Assembly (NCBI GenBank): GCA_902792905.1
Contig: CADBBH010000006.1
Span: 87,633 to 151,632, forward strand
Source: Oscillospiraceae bacterium
GTDB taxonomy: Bacteria > Bacillota > Clostridia > Oscillospirales > Acutalibacteraceae
Reading direction: 5' to 3'
DNA: 64,000 nt
In this document: in pieces, positions 44,723-55,557 of the stretch
How positions within the stretch are numbered: position 1 is the stretch's first letter
Layout: each line of letters opens with the position of its first letter
The notes under the pieces: model-generated
What the model saw: the letters and a program-made list of their open reading frames with translations, nothing else
What the model was told of the DNA's origin: nothing
Databases searched by the model: none
Made by a program: the position numbers and the translations under genes

Positions 44723-45793
44723 ATGAGCAAAGCGTATTTGGTACTCAGCAACGGTGATGTCTTTGAGGGCGAGGCAATAGGCGCTTTCCACGACACCATC
44801 GGAGAACTCGTTTTCACAACGGGTATGGTAGGCTATCTTGAGACACTTACGGATCCGAGCTACGCGGGGCAGATAGTTGTGCAGACTTTCCCGATGATAG
44901 GCAACTACGGAGTCATTGAGGAGGATTTTGAAGGAAAGACGGCGGTCAAAGGCTACGTCGTCAGCGAAATCTGCGAGCATCCTTCAAATTTCAGAAGCCA
45001 GTATGAGCTCAATAAATTCCTCGTTGACAACAACATCTGCGGTATCAGCGGAGTTGACACGCGTCAGATTACCAGGACCATCCGCGAGCAGGGTGTTATG
45101 AATGCCGCGATCTGCAGCAAGGTTCCCGAAGATTTATCCGAAATCAAAGCGTTTGCCGTGAAGGATGTTGTAAAAGAGGTCAGCCAGAAGGAGACCACTT
45201 TCCACACCGACAGCAATGAAAAGAAGTTCACGGTCGTGCTTGTCGACTACGGCGAGAAGAAAGGCATCGTCAGAAGCCTCAACGCGAGGGGCTGCGATGT
45301 CGTTACCGTTCCCTGGGACACATCCGCTGAGGATATCCTCGCTCATAATCCCGACGGAATCATGCTTTCAAACGGCCCCGGCGACCCTGCGGATAATGAA
45401 TACTGCATTGCCCAGATAGGCAAGCTCATCGGTAAGAAGCCGATATTCGGAATCTGCCTCGGCCATCAGCTGACCGCTCTTGCAATGGGCGGCAAAACCG
45501 TAAAACTCAAATACGGACACAGAGGCGCAAATCAGCCCGTTACAGACCTCAGGGGCAACAGAACTTATATCACAACTCAGAATCACGGCTACGCGGTTGT
45601 CGCCGACAGTCTCATCGGCACCGCGAATCAGACATATATCAATGCCAATGACGGCAGCTGCGAGGGTCTCGATTATCCCGGCCTCATGTGCTTCACGGTT
45701 CAGTTCCATCCCGAAGCCTGCGCAGGCCCGAGAGATACAGAAGGATTGTTTGACAGATTTTTAAGAATGATGGGTGGTGAGAGGAATGCCTAA
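44723..45793 (+). CDS. carA: Carbamoyl-phosphate synthase small (glutaminase) subunit
   Basis: A 356-residue CarA. N-terminal domain opens AYLVLSNGDVFEGEAIG; the C-terminal class I amidotransferase has the nucleophile Cys in GICLGHQLTALAMGG and the His/Glu pair in VQFHPEACAGPRDTE. It supplies ammonia from glutamine to CarB. It overlaps the carB start by 8 bp. Slightly short but complete. Confidence 0.96.
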   Translation: MSKAYLVLSNGDVFEGEAIGAFHDTIGELVFTTGMVGYLETLTDPSYAGQIVVQTFPMIGNYGVIEEDFEGKTAVKGYVVSEICEHPSNFRSQYELNKFLVDNNICGISGVDTRQITRTIREQGVMNAAICSKVPEDLSEIKAFAVKDVVKEVSQKETTFHTDSNEKKFTVVLVDYGEKKGIVRSLNARGCDVVTVPWDTSAEDILAHNPDGIMLSNGPGDPADNEYCIAQIGKLIGKKPIFGICLGHQLTALAMGGKTVKLKYGHRGANQPVTDLRGNRTYITTQNHGYAVVADSLIGTANQTYINANDGSCEGLDYPGLMCFTVQFHPEACAGPRDTEGLFDRFLRMMGGERNA

Positions 45794-48700
45794 GGATAAG
45801 AACATACATAAGGTGCTCGTTATCGGCTCAGGTCCGATAGTAATCGGCCAGGCTGCCGAATTCGACTATGCAGGCGCTCAGGCCTGCCGCGTTCTTCGCG
45901 AAGAGGGCATAAACGTTGTGCTCGTAAACTCCAACCCCGCAACCATTATGACCGATAAGCATCTCGCGGATGAGATTTATCTTGAGCCGCTGAATGCCAA
46001 GACGGTCCGCAGAATTATCGCGAAGGAGCGCCCCGACGGCCTCATCGCGGGTCTCGGCGGTCAGACCGGTCTTACCATAGCGATGCAGCTCACCAGAGAC
46101 GGCACTCTGCAGAAATACGGCGTGCGTCTGCTCGGCACGGGTATTGACGCCATAGACAAAGCCGAGGACAGAGAGCTCTTCCGTGAGACGATGCAGGAAA
46201 TCGGCCAGCCCGTCGTTCCTTCGGAAACCTGTAACGATGTTGAGAACGCTCTGCGTATAGCGAAAGAAATCGGCTATCCCGTTATAGTCCGTCCCGCGTT
46301 CACTCTCGGCGGCACAGGCGGCGGTATTGCAGATACGGAAGAAGAGCTTAAAATCATAGCGCGCACCGGTCTCGATATGTCCCCGATTACCCAGATTCTC
46401 GTTGAGAAATGCATCTCCGGCTGGAAGGAAATCGAGTTTGAGACCATGCGAGATGCCGCTGGCAATGCAATCGCTGTCTGCTCAATGGAGAACTTCGACC
46501 CCGTAGGTATTCATACGGGCGACTCAATCGTTGCCGCTCCCGCGCTCACTCTCGCGGATAAAGAATACCAGATGCTCCGCACGGCGTCTCTCGATATAGT
46601 ATCGTCAATCGGAATCATCGGCGGCTGCAACTGTCAGTTCGCTCTCAATCCCGACAGCTTCGAATACGCCGTAATCGAGGTCAACCCCAGAGTTTCGCGT
46701 TCTTCGGCTCTCGCTTCAAAGGCGACCGGTTACCCGATTGCTAAGATGACCACACGCCTTGCTCTCGGCTATAATCTTGATGAAATCAAGAATGATATCA
46801 CGGGAAAGACCTGCGCCTGCTTCGAGCCGACTATCGACTATATCGTAGTCAAATTCCCGAAGTGGCCGTTTGATAAATTCGCGGGCTCTTCAAGAAAACT
46901 CGGAACCCAGATGAAGGCGACCGGCGAAGTCATGGCTATCGGCAGATGCTTCGAAGCCGCTATTATGAAGGCGGTCAGAGGCGCAGAAATCTCCCTTGAT
47001 ACGCTCAATGCAGAGCCGCTTACCGACGAGCCGCTTGAGGTCCGCCTTGCGAAGCAGGATGACCGCAGGGTCTTCACTGTATTCGAAGCGCTAAAGAAGG
47101 GTATGACCCCCGAGCAGATTAACGAAATTACTAAGATAGATAAATTGTTCATCTACAAGCTCAAGAATCTCGTTGACTTTGAGGCGAAGATTGCGAACGG
47201 TCTCGGAGAAGGCGACTATGAGCAGGCGAAGCGTTACGGTTATACCGACGCCGCCATCAAACGTATCAGCGGAGCGAAAGAGCTGCCCGCGAGCGAATTC
47301 AGCTATAAGATGGTTGATACCTGCGCCGCTGAATTCGATGCCGAAACACCGTATTTCTATTCCGTTGCCGACGGCTTCTGCGAGGCGCGCTCCTTCCCGA
47401 GAAGCGGCAAGCCCGTAGTTATGGTTCTCGGTTCCGGACCCATCAGAATCGGTCAGGGTATCGAATTCGACTACAGCTCGGTTCACTGCGTATGGACTCT
47501 TCGCGAAATGGGCTATGAGGTTGTCATCGTCAATAACAACCCCGAAACGGTTTCCACCGACTATGATACGGCCGACCGTCTTTATTTCGAACCCCTTTCA
47601 CCCGAAGACGTTATGAATATAATCAAGGTTGAGAAGCCCATCGGCGTCGTTGTCGCCTTCGGCGGACAGACAGCTATCAAGCTCACTCAGTTCCTTGATG
47701 AAAACGGAATAAGAATTCTCGGCACTTCCGCCGAAAGTATCGATATAGCCGAAGACAGAGCCAAATTCGACGCTCTGCTTGAGCAGTTCGGAATCCGCAG
47801 GCCCAAGGGAATGGGCGTCAACACCCTTCAGGAGGCGTTTGACGCGGCGGAGAGTCTCGGCTATCCCGTTCTCCTCAGACCTTCCTACGTTATCGGCGGG
47901 CAGAATATGACCATTTCCTATGATAACGAGCAGACTGAAGCGTATATGAACAGAATCCTTGCGGGCGGAATCGATAACCCCGTATTGATTGATAAATATA
48001 TGCCCGGCATCGAGCTTGAGGTTGACGTTATCTCCGACGGCGAGGATGTCCTCATCCCCGGTATTATGGAGCATATCGAGCGCGCCGGCATTCACAGCGG
48101 CGACTCCATTGCCGTCTATCCTCCTTATAATCTCAATGATTACTTCCTCGAGAAAATCTGCGACTGCTCCGAGAAGCTCGCGCTCGCGCTCGGCACTCAG
48201 GGCCTCGTAAATATCCAGTATCTTATCTATGACAACGAGCTCTATGTTATCGAAGTCAATCCCAGAGCGTCGAGAACCGTTCCCTATATCAGCAAGGTAA
48301 CGAACGTTCCGATGGTTGACCTCGCGTCAAAGGTTATGCTCGGCGCTAAGCTTTCAAAGCTCGGCTACGGCACCGGCCTTTACAGAACTCCGCCCTACTA
48401 CGCTGTCAAGGTTCCCGTTTTCTCATTTGATAAGCTGCTTGACGCTAACTCGATTCTCGGCCCCGAGATGAAATCGACCGGCGAAGTTCTCGGTATAGGC
48501 AAGACCACCGCGGAAGCTCTCTTCAAAGGCCTTACAGCGGCAGGCTTCTCGGTTCCCTCACGCACCGAATTCAATCCCGCAGTCCTTATCAGTGTTGAGG
48601 ATAACGATTATCAGGAGGCAGTTTCGCTCGCGAAGCGCTTCTATGATATGCATATAAGAATGGTTGCCACCACGGGCACCGCCAAGGCGATTGCCGACTC

Positions 48701-49766
48701 GGGTATTCCCGTTACTTCCGTTGAGGCGAGCGAGCTCTTCAATGTCATTGAGAGCGGCGAAATCAACTATATCATCTATACCGGCGCCGTTCAGGATGAG
48801 ACAATAGGGGATTACACGATTCTCCACCGCCGCGCAATGCAGCTTGAGATTCCGTGCCTCACTTCGCTCGATACGGCGAACGCGCTTGCCGATATCATCG
48901 AGAGCGGCTATACTCCCGTGAACACCGAGCTTGTCGATATCAATAATATGCGTCCCTGGAAGCGTATGATTCCGTTTACCAAGATGCATTCCTGCGGAAA
49001 TGATTATATATTCATTGAGAATTTCGACGGCAATATTACCTGCCCCGAATCCCTCTGCGTCAATCTCTGCAAGCAGCATTATTCTGTCGGCAGCGACGGT
49101 CTCGTTCTGCTTGAAAAATCAAGCAAAGCCGATGTTAAGATGCGCACCTTCAATAAGGACGGCTCCGAGGGCAAGCTCGCGGGCAACAACCTCAGATGCG
49201 TTGCGAAATATCTCTATGACAGCGGCTACATCCGCAGCGAGAATATGAGCGTTGAGATGCCGAGCGGCGTCTATCGCGTAAAGGTCTATCTCAGAGACGG
49301 CAAGGTCAGCGCGGCTATGGTTGAAATGGGCAAGGCCGTAATAACCGAGAGAGACAAGAAGGTTATTGTTGACGGTAAAGAATACACCGGCACCTGCATC
49401 GATGTCGGCAACCCGCATTATGTGACAATCTGCGATGAGACCGAAGGCCTCGACCTCGCCGCAATCGGCCCGAAATTCGAGTATAACGAAGCATTCGAGC
49501 ACAGAGTCAATACCGAATTCGTAAGGATAGTCAACAAGAACTGCATCCGCGCCAGAGTATGGGAGCGCGGAAACGGCGCGACTCTCGCCTGCGGCACAGG
49601 CGCCTGCGCGGCCGTGGTTGCGGCCTGCGAGCTCGGTTACTGCGACAAGGGCAAGGATATTACCGTCAAGCTTACCGGCGGCGAAGTTATTGTCAACTAT
49701 ACAGATGAACGCATCACGCTGACCGGCAACGCAGTGATAGCATATAAAGGCGAATTTGAATATTGA
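45786..49766 (+). CDS. carB: Carbamoyl-phosphate synthase large subunit fused to a DapF-like epimerase domain
   Basis: A 1326-residue protein in one continuous frame. Residues 1-1055 are a full CarB: two ATP-grasp halves opening [20 protein letters not shown] and [20 protein letters not shown], then an MGS-like allosteric domain. Residues 1061-1326 are a diaminopimelate epimerase domain: [11 protein letters not shown] (1067-), [26 protein letters not shown] and [17 protein letters not shown]. The second catalytic Cys is kept (C1269), but the first, normally in CGNG after DGSE, is Ala1132 (LAGNNLRC); a Cys appears instead at 1070. No internal ribosome site precedes 1061. The domain could make meso-DAP, epimerise another amino acid, or be a non-catalytic relic. 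Confidence 0.95.
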
Positions 49767-52844: not shown

Positions 52845-52934
52845 AATTATCCTCCTCAATTATGATAGTTTTATTATAGCATAAGTTATTTTAAATTCAA
52901 TAATAAATTAAGGGAACACATTTTGCGTGTTCCC

Positions 52935-53192
52935 TCAGCTTTCAACAAACCATCTGCCGATGATATTCCCCTTTGAATTGGCGCTTCTCTCAAAGAAGAG
53001 ATATCTCGTCTCGCCGCAGAGGATAATCGTGTATCTGTCACCCTGACCGCCGGATTTCATCGATGCCGCCTGCCTTATATCGCTCACGCGGTCAATCGGG
53101 AATCTGCGCCCGTCCTCCCATATAATCACGCGGGGGAGCATAATCCCGTTTTCATCGAAATCGGCGCGGATTTTAACATATATTCTGTTCAT
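52935..53192 (-). CDS. Conserved small protein linked to the IrrE/DinB locus
   Basis: An 85-residue, beta-rich protein (RIYVKIRADFDENGIMLPRV, then IIWEDGRRFPIDRVSDIRQA) with an aromatic C-terminus. I recall similar short proteins beside dinB and ImmA/IrrE genes in other Clostridia, but cannot verify this here. Its start overlaps the 3' end of the ImmA/IrrE gene by 20 bp, so it belongs to that operon. Function unknown; it may be a partner or modulator of the polymerase or of the regulator pair. Confidence 0.7.
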   Translation of the reverse strand: MNRIYVKIRADFDENGIMLPRVIIWEDGRRFPIDRVSDIRQAASMKSGGQGDRYTIILCGETRYLFFERSANSKGNIIGRWFVES

Positions 53193-53724
53193 TTTTCAAT
53201 TTGATGTTTTTGAGAAAATCGTTGTGGGCGCTGATAGGGGATTCGGCGAGCTGGTATCCCTTGCGCTTCATTATGCGGAATTTGAAATCGAGCAGCTCCA
53301 CAGGCACATAGAGCGAGGCGGCGGCGGTGAAAAAGGTATTGTCGCCGTTGAGCGCGTCGAGCACCTCATCGTCGCTCAGCAGAAATTCCGCGGCGAACAT
53401 ATTCGCCTCTTTTTCCATTTCGGATATTTCGTCAAACATCGATATTTCGTGATAGCTGCACATGCCTATACCGCAATGCTCAATCGCGTGAAAAATCTCA
53501 TGCGCTATTATGATTTTCTGAACATTTTCGGGCAGGTCTGAATTGATTGTCACGGCGAAAACACCGCCGACACCTATCACGAATCCCTTTATAGCGCCCT
53601 TGTGGGAGCCCATTGCCTGATACAGCAGATGAATTCCGAGCCCGTCGCAGAGCTCGGCGGGATTATCGGTGCCGTATTCGGCTTTGAGTTTAGCCGCGAG
53701 CGCGCATATTTCCTTAAGCGTCAT
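53173..53724 (-). CDS. ImmA/IrrE-family zinc metallopeptidase
   Basis: A 183-residue ImmA/IrrE (DUF955) protein. The zinc-protease motif is IIIAHEIFHAIEH, with the third ligand region MEKEANMFAAEFLL about 30 residues later. In ICEBs1 (ImmA) and Deinococcus (IrrE) such enzymes cleave the XRE repressor encoded next to them after DNA damage. The XRE gene is immediately upstream (5-bp gap) and dinB is divergent, so cleavage of that repressor is the natural hypothesis. Its 3' end overlaps the 85-residue gene. Confidence 0.9.
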   Translation of the reverse strand: MTLKEICALAAKLKAEYGTDNPAELCDGLGIHLLYQAMGSHKGAIKGFVIGVGGVFAVTINSDLPENVQKIIIAHEIFHAIEHCGIGMCSYHEISMFDEISEMEKEANMFAAEFLLSDDEVLDALNGDNTFFTAAASLYVPVELLDFKFRIMKRKGYQLAESPISAHNDFLKNIKLKNEQNIC

Positions 53725-53729
53725 AATAC

Positions 53730-54176
53730 TCAGCCCTCTTCGCCGTCTTCTCCTATTCTTCTCTCAAAGCGCGCCTTGGATTCATCCTTGCAGGTGATAT
53801 AAGCGCGCATAACCGCCTCAAAAAAAGTATCCTTTTCGCTCTGTGAGAGCTCTCCGCCCGCGAACAGGGCGATATTATCCTCAAGCAGAGCCTTGATATC
53901 CCTCGCTCCCTGCTCGCCGTAGCGCCTGCCCGCCTCGGCTATATATTTGCCGGTGGGGGATTCCTCGACCTCCTCGATGCTGTCATCGCTGAGATATCTG
54001 TCGCTGACTCCGAGCGCGCGTGCCAGGCGGATGACGGTTGACCTTCTCGGAATTTTTTCGCCCGCCTCATAGCCGTAAACAGAGCGGCCGCTTAGCCCGC
54101 ACATCTCGGCAAGCGCGGTCTGCGATAGACCGAGCTCGTTTCTTCTCTCTCTGATTTTTTCACCGAATGTTTTCAT
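53730..54176 (-). CDS. XRE-family repressor, likely IrrE substrate
   Basis: A 148-residue regulator. N-terminal XRE helix-turn-helix: GEKIRERRNELGLSQTALAE followed by MCGLSGRSVYGYEAGEKIP and RALGVSDRYLSDD. The C-terminal 80 residues are helical (RYGEQGARDIKALLEDNIAL and SQSEKDTFFEAVMRAYITCK), a size and layout like DdrO-type repressors. Start ATG 54176 has GGGAGTGAT upstream; an earlier in-frame start at 54212 overlaps the control region. It probably represses both its own operon and dinB through the repeats at 54241-54288. Confidence 0.88.
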   Translation of the reverse strand: MKTFGEKIRERRNELGLSQTALAEMCGLSGRSVYGYEAGEKIPRRSTVIRLARALGVSDRYLSDDSIEEVEESPTGKYIAEAGRRYGEQGARDIKALLEDNIALFAGGELSQSEKDTFFEAVMRAYITCKDESKARFERRIGEDGEEG

Positions 54177-54197
54177 TAATATCACTCCCGTAACTGA

Positions 54198-54301
54198 AAA
54201 TTCTATTGACAAAATTCTATGCAGATGCTAATATCAATACGAACTTGTATCGAACTTCAATCGTATTTTAACGCAAAATTATGAACTTGTCAATAGAATT
54301 T
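54198..54301. promoter_or_regulatory. Mirror-image divergent promoters with direct-repeat operators
   Basis: Two 15-bp arms, AAATTCTATTGACAA (54198-54212) and TTGTCAATAGAATTT (54287-54301), are perfect inverted copies. Each supplies the -35 of one promoter. Plus strand: TTGACA 54206-54211, 17 nt, TAATAT 54229-54234 (dinB). Minus strand: TTGACA 54293-54288, 17 nt, TAAAAT 54270-54265 (XRE operon). GAACTT occurs in direct orientation at 54241, 54252 and 54283, spaced 11 and 31 bp, that is one and three helical turns, suiting a repressor bound on one DNA face. Confidence 0.75.
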
Positions 54302-54312
54302 GAGTGATTTTT

Positions 54313-55557
54313 ATGGAATTCGGCAGAAAAATTCTTCACAGCGATATGAACTGCTTCTATGCCTCGGTTGAGATGATGCTCAACCCGTCGCTCAGGGGCA
54401 GGGCGGTCGCCGTCTGCGGCTCCACGGAGGACAGGCACGGCATAGTGCTCGCGAAGAGCGAAAAGGCAAAGCGGGCCGGGGTCAGGACCGGTATGGTGAA
54501 TCACGAGGCCCGCGCCCTGTGCCCCGATCTTATAATGGTCGAGCCGCACTATGAGCAGTATCTCAAATACTCGCGCCTTGCCCGCGAAATATACTGCGAT
54601 TATACGGATCTGGTCGAGCCATTCGGAATGGATGAATGCTGGCTCGATGTGACTGAGAGCGTGAATCTTTTCGGCGGAGCGGAGGATATTGCAAAAGAAA
54701 TAAATTCAAGAATAAAATCCGAGCTCGGAATCACCGTGAGCGTCGGCGTCTCCTTCAATAAAATATTCGCGAAGCTCGGCAGCGATATGAAAAAGCCGGA
54801 CGCCGTGACCGTCATCACCCCTGAAAATTTCAGGCAGAAGGTCTGGCATCTGCCCGCAGGGGATCTGCTCTATGCCGGCAGGGCGACCGTGCGCCGTCTG
54901 ACGGAGCTCGGCATATATACGATAGGCGACCTCGCGAATACGGAAATCCGCGTTCTCAAAAGCGTATTCGGAGTGAACGGACTCAAGCTTTACCGCTACG
55001 CGAACGGAACGGACTGCTCGCGCGTTGCGCATAAGGATTTTGTTTCGCCCGTCAAATCAATAGGGCACGGCATCACCTGCGTTGCCGACCTTGAAAACGA
55101 TGACGAGGTCAGGCGGGTTATTCTCTCGCTGAGCCAGGATATAGGTCATAAGCTGCGCGTTCATTCCCTCAAAGCTGAGGGCGTGCAGGTCAGCGTAAGA
55201 AGCAGGGACCTCATAATCCGTCAGTTTCAGACCCGTATGCCGCTCGCGAGCATGCTGCCCGCCGATATCGCGCTGAATGCCTATAAGCTGTTTCTTATGA
55301 AATACAACTGGTATGTGCCGGTCCGTTCGATTACGGTCAGGGCGATAAATCTCGTGCCCGCGAGGGAAGAGGTCCAGCTCGATTTGTTCAATGATTATGC
55401 ACGCCTTGACCGGCTCGAAAAAATGCAGCTTGCAGTCGAGGATATAAGGCGCAGATTCGGCAAGGGCGCGATAAATCCCTGCTCGCTGTTTTCCGAACTC
55501 AAGATTGCCGACAAGGGCGCTTCGGAGATAATTATGCCGAGCATAATGTACGGATAA
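54313..55557 (+). CDS. dinB: DNA polymerase IV (Y-family translesion polymerase)
   Basis: A 414-residue DinB: catalytic acidic residues in LHSDMNCFYASVE and GMDECWLDVTES, KIFAKLGSDMKKP, the helix-hairpin-helix ELGIYTIGDLANT and the C-terminal little-finger domain. It carries out error-prone lesion bypass. I start at ATG 54313 with GAGTG upstream; GTG 54304 is possible. A short C-terminal extension ends in NPCSLFSELK. I see no certain beta-clamp motif, though LDLFNDY (about 358-364) is close to the clamp-binding QxxLF type. Divergent from the XRE/IrrE operon. Confidence 0.94.
   Translation: MEFGRKILHSDMNCFYASVEMMLNPSLRGRAVAVCGSTEDRHGIVLAKSEKAKRAGVRTGMVNHEARALCPDLIMVEPHYEQYLKYSRLAREIYCDYTDLVEPFGMDECWLDVTESVNLFGGAEDIAKEINSRIKSELGITVSVGVSFNKIFAKLGSDMKKPDAVTVITPENFRQKVWHLPAGDLLYAGRATVRRLTELGIYTIGDLANTEIRVLKSVFGVNGLKLYRYANGTDCSRVAHKDFVSPVKSIGHGITCVADLENDDEVRRVILSLSQDIGHKLRVHSLKAEGVQVSVRSRDLIIRQFQTRMPLASMLPADIALNAYKLFLMKYNWYVPVRSITVRAINLVPAREEVQLDLFNDYARLDRLEKMQLAVEDIRRRFGKGAINPCSLFSELKIADKGASEIIMPSIMYG

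Follow-up and report, generated by a model that had tools for sequence, protein, structure and literature searches.

A putative mobile XRE-ImmA switch facing dinB in an Oscillospiraceae bacterium

Introduction

The SOS response is the usual view of how bacteria time mutagenic repair. Another kind of switch pairs an XRE repressor with an ImmA/IrrE-type protease that cleaves it after DNA damage: this is described for ImmR/ImmA (PMC10233336) and for PprI/DdrO (PMC10904395, PMC8072749), and CapH/CapP, as cited in PMC10233336 and PMC10904395, is a further analogue. Here we analyze a 64,000-nucleotide (nt) stretch of DNA, hereafter the window, from an Oscillospiraceae bacterium (assembly GCA_902792905.1, contig CADBBH010000006.1, positions 87,633 to 151,632, forward strand), in which genes for an XRE repressor, an ImmA-type protease and a small protein stand divergent from dinB, the gene of the translesion DNA polymerase IV (Pol IV).

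The small protein connects the locus to a second line of work. Aravind et al. 2013 place standalone ImuB-C domains beside DUF955 metallopeptidases and with DinB, and suggest SOS-linked proteolysis (PMC3765255); Timinskas and Venclovas 2019 describe ImuB-C as coupled to YqjH polymerases, mostly in Clostridia (PMC6511836). We propose, with a probability of about 0.68, that the four genes form a switch for translesion synthesis that is self-contained and moves horizontally, so that this gut bacterium appears to keep an error-prone polymerase under a dedicated repressor-protease switch and not under the usual SOS repressor.

Results

A repressor-protease operon faces dinB

Three minus-strand genes of the window, xre, immA and the small gene, are spaced as one operon, and dinB is divergent from xre (lengths in amino acids, aa):

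53730-54176, minus strand: xre repressor gene, 148 aa, XRE/HTH_3 with the HTH_3 domain at the N terminus (Pfam)
53173-53724, minus strand: immA, M78 (ImmA/IrrE) metallopeptidase, 183 aa, single domain, PF06114 (E 5.8e-14)
52935-53192, minus strand: small protein, 85 aa, sharing 20 nt with the end of immA
52909-52937, minus strand: terminator-like hairpin at the operon end
54313-55557, plus strand: dinB, Y-family DNA polymerase IV, 414 aa, IMS domains, alternative GTG start at 54304

The xre-dinB intergenic region measures 136 nt and holds two predicted promoters on opposite strands, scoring 11/12 and 10/12. Their -35 boxes lie on the far sides, their -10 boxes inside and their predicted start points about 17 nt apart; this face-to-face arrangement would carry each transcript through the opposite promoter. 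Candidate operators are interleaved with them:

54206-54234, plus strand: dinB promoter, TTGACA-17-TAATAT, with TG preceding the second hexamer
54265-54293, minus strand: xre promoter, TTGACA-17-TAAAAT, facing the dinB promoter
54198-54212, plus strand: left arm of a perfect 15-nt inverted repeat, covering the dinB -35 box
54287-54301, minus strand: right arm of the same repeat, covering the xre -35 box
54240-54261, plus strand: main operator proposed for XRE, a pair of GAACTT units (11 nt apart) in the interval that separates the start points
54280-54290, plus strand: third GAACTT half-site, within the xre promoter

Joint repression of dinB and of its own operon by XRE fits this predicted promoter-operator anatomy and is, at this level, well supported. 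The initial annotation had described xre, immA and the small gene as one operon divergent from dinB and placed to control Pol IV; all four genes were confirmed, and the arrangement recurs in relatives, as follows.

The cassette and its promoter pair recur in relatives

An XRE profile was searched in 394 genomes of the order, and 80 of the matches listed were fetched with their flanks (fragment G087:C240 is not among them; genomes and loci carry G and L numbers). A second set, from named genomes, consists of the best 80 of 179 XRE relatives and has 9 shared or duplicate cores with the order set. A Y-family polymerase gene adjoins the XRE relative divergently in 34 of the 80 order loci and downstream in 9, with none in 37; the corresponding counts in the named set are 36, 3 and 41, one of the 41 (L185) being a misclassified positive that does have a divergent polymerase. 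The initial annotation had suggested testing the co-conservation of the four genes in Clostridia, and the arrangement is found well outside this genome. No immA was seen within the fetched stretch in 14/80 order loci. Among the named genomes that carry the cassette are Ruminococcus bromii 5AMG, Ruminococcus sp. FMBCY1, Proteocatella sphenisci DSM 23131, Ruminiclostridium metagenome-assembled genomes (MAGs) and one Riflebacteria MAG. FMBCY1 (L205) has about 1.7 kb extra between xre and immA relative to R. bromii 5AMG (L206), the cassette being otherwise the same.

The promoter pair is conserved along with the genes. Both promoters score at least 10/12 in 36/36 control regions of the order set and in 32/34 of the named set; when the first 36 control regions were shuffled 20 times, a mean of 0.5 and a maximum of 3 carried the pair. 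The pair with its -35 boxes at a distance of 75-120 nt (median 87) occurs in 62 of the 64 distinct regions between an XRE gene and a Y-polymerase gene, from Clostridia and the Riflebacteria MAG, and in none of 67 divergent gene pairs lacking this XRE from the same loci and the window. For these promoter and operator tests L010-L012 were left out, being the L064, L062 and L067 loci, L002 represents the window, and L061 and L062 are close relatives within the tested set. The face-to-face switch is a trait of the XRE-ImmA family, in which a Y-family polymerase is the commonest cargo seen.

Other members of the family differ in content. Ten loci (L220-L222, L224, L225, L227-L229, L231 and L232), with equal match coordinates and scores, apparently represent one shared element of xre-immA and a divergent ImuB-C-like small gene; its hosts are Eisenbergiella, Gemmiger, Fournierella, Oscillibacter, Angelakisella, Faecalibacterium, Negativibacillus and others, and Faecalibacterium sp. 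I4-3-84 has two copies. A second M78-domain protein is found on the divergent side of the related loci L090 and L196. At L170, L174, L180, L234 and L160 a family of about 190 aa stands divergent from xre in the polymerase's place, and the two members scanned gave no Pfam match.

Operator repeats are enriched, lineage-specific and local

With promoter hexamers masked, 36 control regions contain 441 direct 8-mer repeats (shuffled mean 56, maximum 95) and 379 inverted ones (shuffled mean 109, maximum 152); the enrichment has p<0.05 in 29/36 loci in at least one of the two uncorrected tests. The operator word is lineage-specific, with examples such as CGCAA-N5-TTGCG, ACGAAA..TTTCGT and CAAACGGTTTG, and by eye the repeats recur in the same places: the spacer of the polymerase promoter, the interval between the start points and the spacer of the xre promoter.

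Upstream of xre, L003, L004 and L005 retain a pair of GAAC/GAAT units, 10-11 nt apart, as well as TTGTCAA on the xre side. At L003 a UmuC-type polymerase, 28.7% identical to the window DinB over part of its length, stands opposite a switch of the same type; the layout of L259 is similar. At L005 a CsoR-like regulator (Pfam) is the divergent gene; there the polymerase-side promoter is missing by eye and the xre-side sequence is retained. L005 and L176, the latter next to a large ATPase-like open reading frame (ORF, named by eye), are module copies beside metal-related genes and without a Y-family polymerase in the fetched stretch.

The initial annotation had also suggested searching for further sites with the same repeats, and this search turned up no additional exact operator: GAACTT-N5-GAACTT occurs exactly once in the window's own genome, at the cassette, with three one-mismatch sites elsewhere, and at up to one mismatch it has 4 genome sites against 19 for a reversed control pattern. 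In G144, G413, G195 and G418 (genus g70), zero-mismatch matches to the operator-promoter lie at the cassette only, and three-mismatch sites are listed elsewhere. A genome-wide XRE regulon is thus not supported, the exact operator being confined to the cassette in all five genomes tested, by exact matches; this restriction points to a local switch and not to a damage regulon.

The LexA box of genus-mates is absent from the window dinB

Within the genus, PF01726 matches at 1e-3 in 36/45 genomes, 28 of them strongly (E <=1.8e-13, which we call canonical LexA). Eight genomes hold a dinB-type gene (A3 profile, E <1e-140): two with the module, namely the window's dinB and that of G028, which are 99% identical, and six without it. 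Five of the six module-free genes have a perfect LexA box (GAACATTTGTTC or its like) within 220 nt upstream, and neither of the two with the module has one, the best site of the window control region having 4 mismatches to the genus LexA box; the initial annotation's statement that no LexA palindrome is present there holds. More broadly, 30 of the genus Y-polymerase matches were fetched. A LexA box with at most one mismatch precedes 11/18 module-free genes in canonical-LexA genomes (one of the 18 without upstream sequence), 1/6 module-free genes in other genomes and 0/6 genes with the module, two of these six being operon-internal and uninformative; shuffles gave 0.7/30 loci at up to two mismatches. 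Upstream sequence is missing for L261, and at L255 and L257 the absence of a box says little because the stretch before the polymerase gene is immA coding sequence. Matches with two mismatches occur in 3/39 (duplicates included) and 0/34 cassette control regions elsewhere.

We considered and rejected the statement that this genome has no LexA. PF01726 gives no match at 1e-3 in the genome, which is 84% complete, and a Peptidase_S24 search nevertheless found divergent LexA-like S24 proteins (L270, L271 and L272), of which L270 (E 2.2e-29) and L272 (E 7.6e-21) match TIGR00498, both below the family cut-off. Two of the three are near-identical copies on different contigs. A related LexA-type box, ACGAACATTTGTGC, occurs exactly in the genome only upstream of L272. 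Because of these proteins, the LexA-independence claimed in the initial annotation is narrowed to the part that stands, the lack of a LexA site at dinB.

Across the order, a hand count of 33 genomes with the divergent-dinB cassette found PF01726 absent in 19, weak in 5 and clear in 9, the last group showing that the cassette also coexists with LexA; 101/394 genomes of the order lack a PF01726 match. Many of the 19 PF01726-negative cassette genomes have LexA-like matches to TIGR00498. TIGR00498 was run on 27 cassette genomes whose PF01726 match is weak or absent: seven, including G144 and G278 (both single-contig genomes), give no match at 1e-5, although G144 has a weak PF01726 match (1.6e-4), and the other 20 do match, all but G369 below the cut-off. 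Within the genus, the cassette is carried by 6/14 genomes without strong PF01726 and by 1/23 with it (Fisher p=0.007, hand-assigned and uncorrected for relatedness); the link between the cassette and a lack of canonical LexA is weak. At the promoters of UmuC-type genes in two genomes without canonical LexA (L251 and L268, in G007 and G430) lies a GGACA-N3-TGTCC palindrome, perhaps the site of a divergent LexA.

Related cassettes occur on phages and plasmids

Among annotated phages, the closest peptidase belongs to Acutalibacteraceae phage NatCom_991, a complete 56.8-kb record. This phage has the polymerase, divergent XRE, metallo-protease and small protein in the gene order of the window, with respective identities of 60, 50, 50 and 63% (polymerase, XRE, protease, small protein), and its control region scores 12/12 for the promoters on both sides. 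A scan of IMG/VR gave 22 loci, of which 16 have a divergent polymerase and 15 all four genes, with the promoter pair in 16/16; L290/L293, L300/L301 and L287/L303 are near-duplicates, and the viral status of the contigs rests on the collection. A Monoglobus plasmid record carries a related set with dinB divergent, xre-immA is followed by a 'DNA repair protein' and YolD on Ruminococcus albus 7 plasmid pRUMAL02, and a plasmid of Campylobacter sp. RM16192 has xre-immA and a Y-family polymerase; a Vescimonas record shows xre-immA and no polymerase within the stretch. On Monoglobus pectinilyticus plasmid 12 (L284), the record annotation places a predicted tet(40) gene some 2 kb away from the cassette.

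In a maximum-likelihood DinB tree of 54 rows, the window protein groups with those of G278, G297, a Clostridiales MAG and phage NatCom_991 (support 95/87). It stands apart from the LexA-boxed dinBs of its genus-mates, the cassette dinBs in its group coming from other families, and the Monoglobus plasmid dinB is almost identical to the copy of genome G209. This clustering with cassette and phage dinBs argues that the cassette was acquired as a unit, and it was probably taken up whole by the window lineage. An in-place promoter swap at one ancestral dinB was rejected on the same grouping.

No integrase or conjugation gene is apparent among the 15 further ORFs (130 aa or longer) that lie between 39.7 kb and the window end, the remaining window being unscanned (13 ORFs were scanned with Pfam; carB and purC were named by eye). 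The initial annotation's remark that no integrase or conjugation gene lies nearby therefore stands for these 15 ORFs, but the cassette itself is mobile, on phages and plasmids. CBASS genes were likewise not found adjoining the cassette, whose neighbors are dinB, SDR and Gfo/Idh genes. Further off, at 45774-49766 on the plus strand, a single 1330-aa frame resembles by eye a carbamoyl-phosphate synthase large chain fused to a diaminopimelate epimerase.

Predicted properties of the four proteins

The XRE model (pLDDT 80.5, pTM 0.44) shows a helix-turn-helix (HTH) domain and two long C-terminal helices that meet at FAGG (residues 105-108), a nearly invariant motif. Its top full-length Foldseek match is DdrO (6jq1, E 1.7e-4), its HTH matches ImmR (7t8i), and the closest full-length solved relative of its profile is 9sf2, a 129-aa chain labelled 'Transcriptional regulator' (E 1.2e-10). 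ImmA has an intact HEXXH motif and downstream Glu, with H75, E76, H79 and E104 invariant in 10/10 aligned sequences; its sole Pfam domain is PF06114, which we take to be the present name of DUF955, at residues 26-148, and CapP (7t5t, E 2.3e-7) is the best sequence match of its profile in the PDB. In DinB, D11, D107 and E108, presumably the catalytic residues, are invariant in the alignment, and QLDLF near the C terminus is presumably the clamp motif.

The small protein is predicted to be an all-beta fold of six strands (pLDDT 90). W81 and F82 are conserved in 14/14 rows of one alignment, W81 in 13/15 of another, and the position of the gene varies: it follows immA in some genomes and in others lies opposite xre or immediately behind dinB. 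Pfam and NCBIfam named no family at 1e-3, PHROGs gave none, a fold search against the PDB found no match (best E 0.34), and the comparison with DUF6504 was weak (best E 0.04, 2/14 members). About 80 aa, beta-rich, with a conserved C-terminal Trp and adjoining a Y-family polymerase gene, the protein has the traits of a standalone ImuB-C, and its predicted structure fits a standalone ImuB-C-type polymerase accessory.

Discussion

We favor a model in which XRE would bind the repeated operators in and between the facing promoters and repress both dinB and the xre-immA-small operon. DNA damage would activate ImmA, which may cut XRE in its C-terminal domain; both promoters would then open, giving Pol IV on one side and, on the other, its ImuB-C-like partner, fresh ImmA and new XRE, the last of which would reset the switch once ImmA falls quiet. 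The small protein may act as a partner of Pol IV, and interference between the converging transcripts could sharpen the switch. Since ImmA lacks the extra domains of IrrE, damage sensing may be linked to RecA as in ICEBs1, or be direct through single-stranded DNA (ssDNA). We infer from ImmR/ImmA, DdrO/IrrE and CapH/CapP that XRE binds these operators, that ImmA cleaves it and that damage is the inducing signal.

Several observations weigh against a dedicated damage switch of this kind. The promoter pair is also present in 20/41 XRE-family pairs with another divergent partner, which makes XRE-ImmA look like a general switch with changeable cargo, and about half of the XRE-family loci lack a Y-family polymerase and have other cargo or none. 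The window's direct repeats by themselves reach p=0.08 (scored as L002, whose control region is identical), so the significance of its operator derives from conservation in relatives. On the protein side, ImmA is without the additional domains through which IrrE binds ssDNA, TM-scores between the XRE model and DdrO are only 0.40-0.46, VIA-align placed DdrO on the N-terminal domain of XRE only, and the XRE C-terminal profile had one chance-level match in the PDB (E 0.19). Finally, the LexA-like proteins of the genome could act on dinB.

XRE could repress dinB and itself while ImmA answers a signal other than DNA damage, such as a peptide, phage infection, metal or redox stress. The ImmA of ICEBs1 also responds to a peptide signalling pathway (PMC10233336), the L005 and L176 copies sit beside metal-related genes, and many XRE-ImmA pairs of the family have other cargo; against this, the characterized ImmR/ImmA, DdrO/IrrE and CapH/CapP systems all answer DNA damage, a lesion-bypass polymerase is the commonest cargo, and the same type of gene has a LexA box in genus-mates. 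We regard such a signal as unlikely. It is improbable that a divergent LexA-like protein is the main regulator of dinB and that XRE acts on its own operon only: the genome does hold L270, L271 and L272, but the control region has no match to the genus LexA box, ACGAACATTTGTGC is exact only upstream of L272, the proposed array of XRE operators encloses the dinB promoter, and in G144 and G278 the cassette is found in single-contig genomes with no TIGR00498 match at 1e-5 (in G144 beside the weak PF01726 match).

XRE-COG2856 pairs were formerly classed among toxin-antitoxin systems (PMC2701414), and the apparently shared ten-locus element is present in several genera without a Y-family polymerase, so xre-immA-small might be read as a toxin-antitoxin system or a remnant of phage or integrative-element immunity that merely adjoins dinB. 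A divergent Y-polymerase in 34/80 and 36/80 XRE relatives (the latter the best 80 of 179), the promoter geometry in 62/64 regions and the recurrence on phage and plasmid make this highly improbable, as chance adjacency at such a rate would be unexpected.

If the damage-responsive, mobile switch that we favor is correct, control of mutation would be a mobile trait in gut bacteria: some species of the genus have a LexA box at this type of polymerase gene, another has an XRE-ImmA switch beside it, and phages and plasmids carry the switch. Similar four-gene cassettes in other gut bacteria and phages suggest that inducible mutation may be portable there. We give even odds to the wider proposal that gut Clostridia have in common with their phages and plasmids a portable cassette for mutagenesis (a Pol IV or UmuC-type polymerase, an ImuB-C-like partner, XRE and ImmA, with face-to-face, bistable-looking promoters) whose uptake frees mutagenic repair from LexA and which, where LexA is undetectable, provides inducible mutagenesis on its own. 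This yields a concrete prediction for gut Clostridia in which no LexA is detected, and the compact two-protein system would allow repressor proteolysis to be studied on one promoter pair.

Comparison with known systems

Our literature search found no paper on an XRE-ImmA pair controlling a Y-family polymerase, subscription papers and preprints being mostly outside its coverage, and the parts seen of Aravind et al. 2013 describe neighborhoods with no XRE repressor, control region, switch or mobility (PMC3765255). ImmR/ImmA of ICEBs1 and TnSmu1 shares with the window a two-gene xre-immA operon, a small XRE and a one-domain HEXXH protease; its cargo is excision and conjugation genes, whereas here it is a Y-family polymerase, chromosomal or carried by phage or plasmid, and an ImuB-C-like protein. 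DdrO/IrrE (PprI) of Deinococcus likewise places an XRE and an M78 protease over DNA-repair genes. IrrE, however, has further HTH and GAF-like domains that the 183-aa window ImmA lacks, IrrE/PprI binds ssDNA (PMC10904395), and DdrO runs a regulon, whereas no further exact operator was found here in the genomes tested. Of the IrrE and ImmA precedents invoked in the initial annotation, the XRE/M78 module itself stands, and the one-domain ImmA/ImmR is closer than the multi-domain IrrE.

CapH/CapP of CBASS resembles the window in dedicating an XRE and an M78 protease to one neighboring operon, but its cargo is anti-phage immunity and not lesion bypass, and the solved CapP chain has 291 aa. LexA-controlled dinB and lexA-imuB-C-polY share a repressor removed by proteolysis, the same type of polymerase and an ImuB-C partner (PMC6511836); they differ in that the window has no LexA box and its repressor and protease are two proteins. 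The conserved control region was not found described in the literature searched, and the cassette presents a known kind of switch, an XRE repressor with an ImmA-type protease, in what would be a new role.

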